Of a stretch of DNA of 53,058 nucleotides, positions 44,027 through 45,424 are shown in pieces. The stretch's first letter is position 1. The number at the start of each line of letters is the position of its first letter. The position numbers and the translations under genes are program-made. Origin of the DNA: Clostridiales bacterium (GTDB taxonomy: Bacteria; Bacillota; Clostridia; Peptostreptococcales; Anaerovoracaceae); the NCBI GenBank assembly GCA_009782285.1, contig WRJK01000005.1, positions 1-53,058 on the forward strand, written 5' to 3'. Below the pieces are notes generated by a model. It worked only from the letters and a program-made list of their open reading frames with translations. It was not told the DNA's origin and did no database searches.

Positions 44027-45318
44027 TCACTTTGGCGGCCTAAAAGCGGCAAGAATGTCTTTTGCTTCATCGTTTGCCAAATCGTAGTGGCTTTCCAAAA
44101 TGAATGCCGCTCTTTCGCGAGTGTTGATGAATTCGGATTCTATGTGCTCTGCATAGGCAATTGCTTCAAGCATTTCCTGCTCTTTGCTGTATTCCGGGTA
44201 GACAATAGATATCTTTTTCAGGTGGCTCCAATTCGCACGTGTTCTGTTTGCTCCTGTTGACGAAAGCAGTATTTCACATATTGGTTCAGTATTTTGTTTT
44301 CGCTTTCCAAACTGCGCTCATACACCTTTGAAAAAGGCGGGTTTGTGATTGCCACGTCAAAATAATTCACAGAATCCGCGACTATTTCGCCAAGTTCCTT
44401 TTTCTCTATAATTGCCTCTGCATCGTCAGCAGCCTCGTCAATCTGAGGATTTTTGTCCAATGCGTCCGTATTGAAAATCTTAGTGCCGCCATCACCGTGC
44501 AAATACATGTTCAGCCTTGCAACCCTTGAAAGGTTGGGGCCTTTTCCAACGTCAATGCCAACGATGCAGCTCTTTCGTATTTTTTCTTTCAGCTCGTCTT
44601 TTTCCGTGCGTGACAAATTAGTTAACGCCTCGACTCTGCTCCATGCGTCGGCAAAAACATCTATCAAAAATCCACCCGTGCCGCAACAAGCATCAACGAC
44701 CGTATCCGTGTGATAGCTTCCATCGTCCATCCTTGAATGAACTTTCAATTGGGCAAGGCCGACTCCCATCTTGATAAGCGATCGTGGAGTAAAAAACTGC
44801 CCCAGATCTTTGCCGCGCATTGTTGCGCTCAGAAATGTTTCGAAAAGCCTTCCGTTCAAATCCGCGTCTATCCCAAACAGAAACATCTTTTCTAATTTTT
44901 GCACCACTCCAAAGATTGTTTCAGGACGCAGGTTTATCCGTTCGGCCGCATTGAAAAAGCGTTTTCTTTCCCCCAGCGCAATTTCAGTTTCCATCCTAGC
45001 AACGAATGCGCGAAACTGTATGTCTGACATCGGATTTGCCGCGTTCTTCTGCTCTCGCTCAATCCATGCTGTTGAAAACCTAACATCCTCAGCGGGCACA
45101 AGGATTTTTTGTTCGGTAAGAGCCTCGGGGTACTTGTCTTTTATTTCTTTGTCGGACATCAGCTTTAGGGCAACAAGTTTTACAAATTCAGAGAACGCCT
45201 CGCTTTGGCTGATGTTGTCTTTCCTGTAGATGCGCTGGTGGCACCACGAAAATGCAGCGTTGACTTCAGGCAAGCTTTCTTTTACAATGCAAAAATTCAA
45301 ATTGTCCCGTGCTGTCAT
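44027..45318 (-). pseudogene. broken N6-adenine DNA methylase (HsdM-type)
   Basis: The main frame (45318-44218, 366 residues) is an HsdM-like methylase: FLSATMRGKDLGQFFTPRSL, SAM motif VVDACCGTGGFLIDVF, catalytic NPPFSKVYE. After ENKILNQYV it breaks: seven-odd family blocks are missing and translation stops at 44218. A different frame continues at once with SHLKKISIVYPEYSKEQEML to LAAFRPPK and a stop at 44027, so a deletion plus frameshift separated the two parts. No hsdS or hsdR gene is near. The start is preceded by AAGGAG and by a promoter with two LexA-type boxes. Confidence 0.75.
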
Positions 45319-45376
45319 TTGTCAGTAACTCCTTCTCCTTAACAATCATATCATACCACGCTTGAAAAGCAAGCGT

Positions 45377-45417
45377 GAACGGCTGTTCTTCTCTTATTAT
45401 ACGCGAACGGCTGTTCG
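45377..45417. promoter_or_regulatory. two LexA (SOS) box-like operators
   Basis: CGAACGGCTGTTCG (45404-45417) and GAACGGCTGTTC (45377-45388) both fit the Firmicutes SOS box CGAACnnnnGTTCG; the core is identical and the centres are 28 bp apart. The first sits between -35 and -10, the second at the transcription start, the classic place for LexA repression. Confidence 0.72.
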
Positions 45418-45424
45418 TTGTCAA
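45396..45424 (-). promoter_or_regulatory. strong promoter of the HsdM-like gene
   Basis: Minus-strand TTGACA (45424-45419), exactly 17 bases, TATAAT (45401-45396): full consensus. One LexA-type box fills the spacer, and another lies at the expected transcription start. Confidence 0.8.

Follow-up and report, generated by a model that had tools for sequence, protein, structure and literature searches.

The promoter and the gene behind it

The window, a stretch of 53,058 nucleotides from a Clostridiales bacterium (contig WRJK01000005.1), carries on its minus strand (45424-45377) the arrangement TTGACA-AC-GAACAGCCGTTC-GCG-TATAAT-AAGAGAA-GAACAGCCGTTC. The -35 hexamer TTGACA (45419..45424, minus strand) and the -10 hexamer TATAAT (45396..45401, minus strand), held apart by a spacer of 17 nt, make up a sigma-70 promoter that agrees with the consensus at 12 of 12 positions, and no other promoter of this quality was present in the 2.4 kb scanned. 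A first candidate LexA box (45404..45417, minus strand; forward CGAACGGCTGTTCG, minus-strand CGAACAGCCGTTCG) fills the spacer, and a second candidate (45377..45388, minus strand; forward GAACGGCTGTTC, minus-strand GAACAGCCGTTC) begins 7 nt past the -10 hexamer, at about +1 to +12, and covers the predicted start site. Both boxes contain the identical 12-mer GAACAGCCGTTC, 28 bp apart. An earlier note on this DNA had described two boxes in a full-consensus promoter, one in the spacer and the other at the expected start, and we found both where it had placed them. Start codons and promoters are predictions throughout.

When compared to dinucleotide shuffles, the extended 14-mer CGAACN4GTTCG occurs once in the window (0.10 expected) and GAACN4GTTC occurs three times (0.78 expected), with two of these three forming the promoter pair. 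Two GAACN4GTTC sites 28 bp apart in one perfect promoter are well past the chance expectation of a single 14-mer. The centre of the window box, AGCC/GGCT, is atypical, and its affinity may therefore be modest: with a matrix built from SOS boxes the window box scored 9.7, at the low end, when most SOS boxes score 13-20. The offset of box 1 within the spacer also differs by 3 bp from that in the other spacer-type promoters described below.

The predicted 5' leader contains a perfect 8-bp hairpin (CACGCTTG-CTTTT-CAAGCGTG; 45357..45377, minus strand) that touches box 2 and has no T run behind it. Since the whole leader folds no better than shuffles and gave no Rfam match, we rejected a terminator or structured leader at this promoter. 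A ribosome-binding site, AAGGAGAAGGAG (45329..45340, minus strand), precedes the ATG at 45318.

This ATG opens a truncated N6 DNA methylase gene of 366 aa (44218..45318, minus strand; Pfam N6_Mtase, 1.2e-17), whose product comprises a helical region and the catalytic domain and ends just beyond NPPF. The NPPF and SAM-region residues of the window protein could be aligned with those of two plasmid homologues and of a homologue from G385, a genome of the same genus (WRJV01, MAG Nt197P4bin16; alignment A1). Relatives of this enzyme are single chains of about 880-920 aa with an HSDR_N nuclease-like N-terminus, an N6_Mtase domain and a specificity region. The N-terminal nuclease domain, present as HSDR_N in the intact relatives, is absent from the window copy, which starts at the point where the nuclease domain of the relatives ends. 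About 330 aa have been lost to an internal deletion, among them the specificity (target-recognition) region, and only the last ~70 residues survive, out of frame, as a C-terminal remnant (GANRTRANWSHLKK...FRPPK; approximately 44027..44254, minus strand) that was read against the C-termini of the homologues. The downstream gene had been called broken in the earlier note, and this out-of-frame end of the same protein bears that out. Judged from its sequence, the window gene is a dead copy, doubly truncated, with an intact switch before it; an assembly error might, in principle, account for the break.

We rejected a plain HsdM identity for the enzyme, as the relatives are HSDR_N - N6_Mtase - specificity fusions and the window protein reached only 17.9 bits against the HsdM family TIGR00497 (cut-off 242.75). 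On inspection of the window neighbours we met a membrane-transporter-like gene and redox-type ORFs, and no hsdS or hsdR partners. In NCBIfam, both the window protein and the intact relatives match the MAD2 methyltransferase NF047738 best, scoring 111-186 bits, far below the cut-off of 720, and the HSDR_N and N6_Mtase domains of the intact relatives resemble those of single-chain type IIG enzymes.

The box at SOS genes and at methyltransferase genes

A box of the type GAAC-N4-GTTC/T is common to recA, dinB and lexA of the window genome. At recA (C8), AGAACAATTGTTCG stands immediately after the -10 hexamer; at dinB (C19, a Y-family polymerase gene named from its N-terminal sequence), AGAACACATGTTCT stands in the spacer (TTGACA-N5-GAACACATGTTC-TATCAT); and at lexA (C147), GAACACCTGTTT lies upstream of the promoter region. 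The identity of C147 as lexA is indicated by TIGR00498 (228 bits, cut-off 111), and the genome has a single LexA/UmuD-type S24 match. The earlier note had allowed that lexA and recA of this genome might use a different box; both use the type seen in the window.

Promoter-anchored searches of 248 genomes revealed box promoters before yneA-like LysM genes in ~25 family genomes, and reversed-pattern controls gave 0 matches in these searches. The products are ~100 aa long with a membrane segment and a LysM domain, an architecture shared with YneA, the SOS division inhibitor. The yneA-like naming rests on this architecture, since lexA was not found beside these genes within the loci examined. Their promoters often carry box pairs 28-31 bp apart, a range that includes the 28 bp of the window, and identical box pairs also occur at two of these loci (L203 and L214). 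In one genome of the family (G456), the spacer layout precedes a lexA-like gene. Because the same box stands at SOS genes of the genome and of the family, the window boxes are very probably LexA operators.

An intact same-genus homologue of the window gene, G385:C283, has the promoter TTGACA-N5-AAACATATGTTC-TATAAT, in which a box with one mismatch occupies the spacer as in the window, so a box at a place noted earlier is also seen at an intact gene. A second, better copy in the window genome (C68) is 81% identical to the G385 protein; its promoter is unreadable because the contig start cuts the gene. A single-protein scan of genome contigs gave 0 relatives of the window enzyme and an alignment-based scan gave 80, whose upstream regions contained no conserved LexA box of the Gram-positive, gamma, alpha or cyanobacterial type. 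Among distant homologues with checkable upstream DNA, we observed scattered one-mismatch matches and no box in a comparable place. The lack of the pattern in distant homologues suggests that LexA-box control is a genus trait rather than a property of the enzyme family, and the coupling of methylases to LexA boxes looks genus-specific.

We surveyed the methyltransferase genes of three families (PF02384, PF01555 and PF02086) in the window genome (G000) and G385, both of them incomplete MAGs (completeness 87.5% and about 80%, respectively). The survey yielded 16 genes, 14 of them testable by virtue of a readable upstream region, and 10 of these 14 have a promoter-linked box. Seven boxes are exact: those of the window gene, of C7 and C22 (both N6-MTase genes with HsdS behind), C145 (N6-MTase), C167 (D12/Dam-type MTase), C46 and G385:C269. 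Three have one mismatch (C2, G385:C283 and G385:C302). No box was found at the remaining four: G000:C60, which has little upstream sequence, G000:C160, which lies behind an HsdR-type gene, G385:C168 and G385:C240. By type, the boxed genes are those of single-chain fusion enzymes, of M-S operons of type I, of Dam-type and N4/N6-type enzymes and of a C5/N6 fusion. With 44 exact GAACN4GTTC sites in 3.1 Mb, the probability of an exact site is 0.0035 per 250-bp upstream region, and exact sites at 7 of 14 genes would arise by chance with P ~2e-14. The methylase boxes are beyond chance even when a loose definition of upstream is allowed for. We read each exact box of the genome in the stretch around its match; most lie inside genes and were counted as chance.

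The promoter-linked boxes follow one of two layouts. The first places the box in the spacer, where it abuts the -10 hexamer, as at C7, C10, C14 and dinB of the window genome and at the HD, dinB and methylase genes of G385. In the second, a usually T-rich stretch of 9-11 nt separates the box from the downstream TTGAC (TTGTAT once), which is followed after 17 nt (16 once) by TATAAT or TATCAT; its members are C145, C46, C167, C2, C4, the Uma2 genes of both species, G385:C269 and G385:C302. The box in the second layout takes the position of the distal box in the yneA-like promoters of the family. A box of the first layout would block polymerase outright and give tight control. A box of the second would overlap the contact region of the RNA polymerase alpha subunit and probably give milder control; it may do no more than damp expression, as would befit methylases that the cell can never afford to switch off entirely.

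Proposed regulation and its alternatives

We propose, with a probability of roughly 85%, that the two boxes are LexA operators on the promoter of a now-truncated single-chain enzyme, and that they represent one case of a genus-wide LexA control of most restriction-modification (R-M) methylases. LexA repression and its RecA-triggered release are established SOS biology. In the undamaged cell, LexA bound to the spacer box and to the box at the start site would block RNA polymerase, and since both boxes lie on the core promoter, the window promoter would be tightly off. Upon DNA damage, RecA filaments would trigger self-cleavage of LexA and the promoter would fire; formerly it would have driven a single-chain nuclease-methylase-specificity enzyme. 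From the sequences we infer LexA binding, the strength of repression, induction by damage and the purpose of the coupling. SOS control of an HsdM-type methylase had been suggested earlier: the SOS part is supported by the boxes at recA, dinB, lexA and the G385 homologue, and the HsdM part gives way to a fused nuclease-methylase-specificity type.

The alternative that survives best, though we hold it unlikely, is that a dedicated regulator other than LexA, for example an R-M controller protein acting as repressor or activator, has a site that happens to read GAAC-N4-GTTC. Such a protein would fit the identical 12-mers of the window pair, as well as the methylase box centres, which are often GC-richer (GCAC, GTAC, AGCC) than those of SOS genes (AATT, ATAT, ACAT), and a fixed position 9-11 nt upstream of the -35 hexamer would also suit an activator. 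However, the spacer layout is common to dinB of both species, the upstream position recurs as the distal box of the yneA-like promoters, where identical pairs are also found, and a casual look beside the loci that were read brought no controller-type gene to notice.

An origin of the promoter at a repair gene had also been put forward. A boxed promoter borrowed through rearrangement, and meaningless for the methylase, would agree with a window gene that is itself rearranged, its 5' and internal parts deleted; yet the G385 homologue, like eight further methylase genes in the genus, has its own boxed promoter, and the flanking sequences differ. With boxes this widespread among the methylase genes of the genus, there is no need for this alternative, and we consider it very improbable. 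Chance palindromes can practically be dismissed, for although the 44 exact sites in the genome come close to what the shuffle rate of the window predicts and most intragenic sites are chance, the promoter-linked subset is uniform in its geometry and takes in recA, dinB and the majority of methylases, and the combined patterns gave 0 matches when reversed.

Beyond LexA control of the window promoter itself, it is likely that LexA serves in this genus as a general transcriptional controller of R-M, with most methyltransferase genes SOS-inducible via the two standard layouts, one of which uses a single box just upstream of the -35 hexamer, in a damage- or invasion-triggered programme of immunity and modification. 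As the type I operons carry M and S and the single-chain enzymes carry a nuclease too, induction would raise nuclease as well as methylase activity. Regarding the purpose of the coupling, we lean slightly to an induced defence against single-stranded incoming DNA that triggers SOS; a modification rescue, in which repaired DNA is re-methylated against self-cutting, is the less probable of the two, if still a plausible one. If LexA control of this kind holds, the SOS repressor would make defence and methylation inducible, unlike the known proteolytic lowering of restriction after damage, and the methylation patterns of such bacteria would shift after damage. It would also allow one to test directly how a cell keeps from cutting its own DNA when this has just been repaired and is still unmethylated, and would supply a promoter rule (a box 9-11 nt before the -35 hexamer, or within the spacer) for searches of other genomes.

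In B. subtilis, ydiO-ydiP, which code for the BsuM methylases, are reportedly listed among the LexA-regulated operons; this would be the nearest precedent, but it would concern one locus as opposed to most methylases here. Near the hsd locus of E. coli lies symE. This stress gene is SOS-controlled with a LexA site over its promoter (PMC3874152), an arrangement like that of the window, but its product is a toxin and not a methylase. The same 2013 review of R-M regulation (PMC3874152) names LexA for toxin-antitoxin genes only, and a 2025 review of R-M biology (PMC12707154) does not mention LexA. Restriction alleviation (EcoKI, ClpXP) ties DNA damage to R-M activity (PMC12707154; see also PMC4231737); that process is proteolytic and lowers restriction, whereas control here would be transcriptional and would raise expression. 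GAAC-N4-GTTC is the motif given for B. subtilis LexA and searched in C. difficile (PMC4234289). The regulon proposed here resembles the Bacillus/Clostridium-type LexA (DinR) regulon in its box sequence and in the presence of the box at recA, lexA, dinB and a yneA-like gene, and differs from it in also including several types of R-M methylase, a Uma2 nuclease, AlbA_2/ATPase and HD-domain genes. A term search of the main text found no "restriction" in the C. difficile LexA paper (PMC4234289) and neither "restriction" nor "methyltransferase" in the S. venezuelae LexA paper. The operator itself would be the known Gram-positive LexA box.

Other boxed loci

Two exact 14-mer sites were rejected as operators and treated as chance: the one at C7:2042 lies inside a 765-aa frame and the one in C12 inside a 421-aa coding frame. 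Upstream of lexA, a low-complexity ORF with many VSDQVSDH repeats was observed (G000:C147; L005:3447-3989). The boxed N4/N6-MTase gene of C46 (L059:3829-4494) is interrupted by a TGA, making it a second broken gene with an intact LexA-box promoter. The LexA-box promoter at G000:C4:2194 (L009:1353-1512) is followed by a frame of ~20 codons and then a thioesterase gene, and it may be a further promoter whose original gene is gone. In G385:C302 (L229:2203-5935), a gene for a C5-methylase/N6-methylase fusion, whose one-mismatch box stands 9 nt upstream of TTGACG, precedes a T4 RNA ligase-like gene (PF09511).

Among genes of other kinds, a Uma2 nuclease gene (C1) has a promoter-linked box, and a gene for an SLFN_AlbA_2 and RecG-C-terminal-like ATPase protein (C10; L019:6-1370) has a perfect spacer-type LexA-box promoter (G000:C10:4530-4558). 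A perfect promoter of the same type precedes, in both species, the gene for an HD and HD_assoc_2 protein (G000:C14, L022:173-1417; G385:C314, L100), which is possibly a damage-induced phosphohydrolase. At the HD, dinB and Uma2 genes, the half-sites of the box are kept between the two species and the centres differ.
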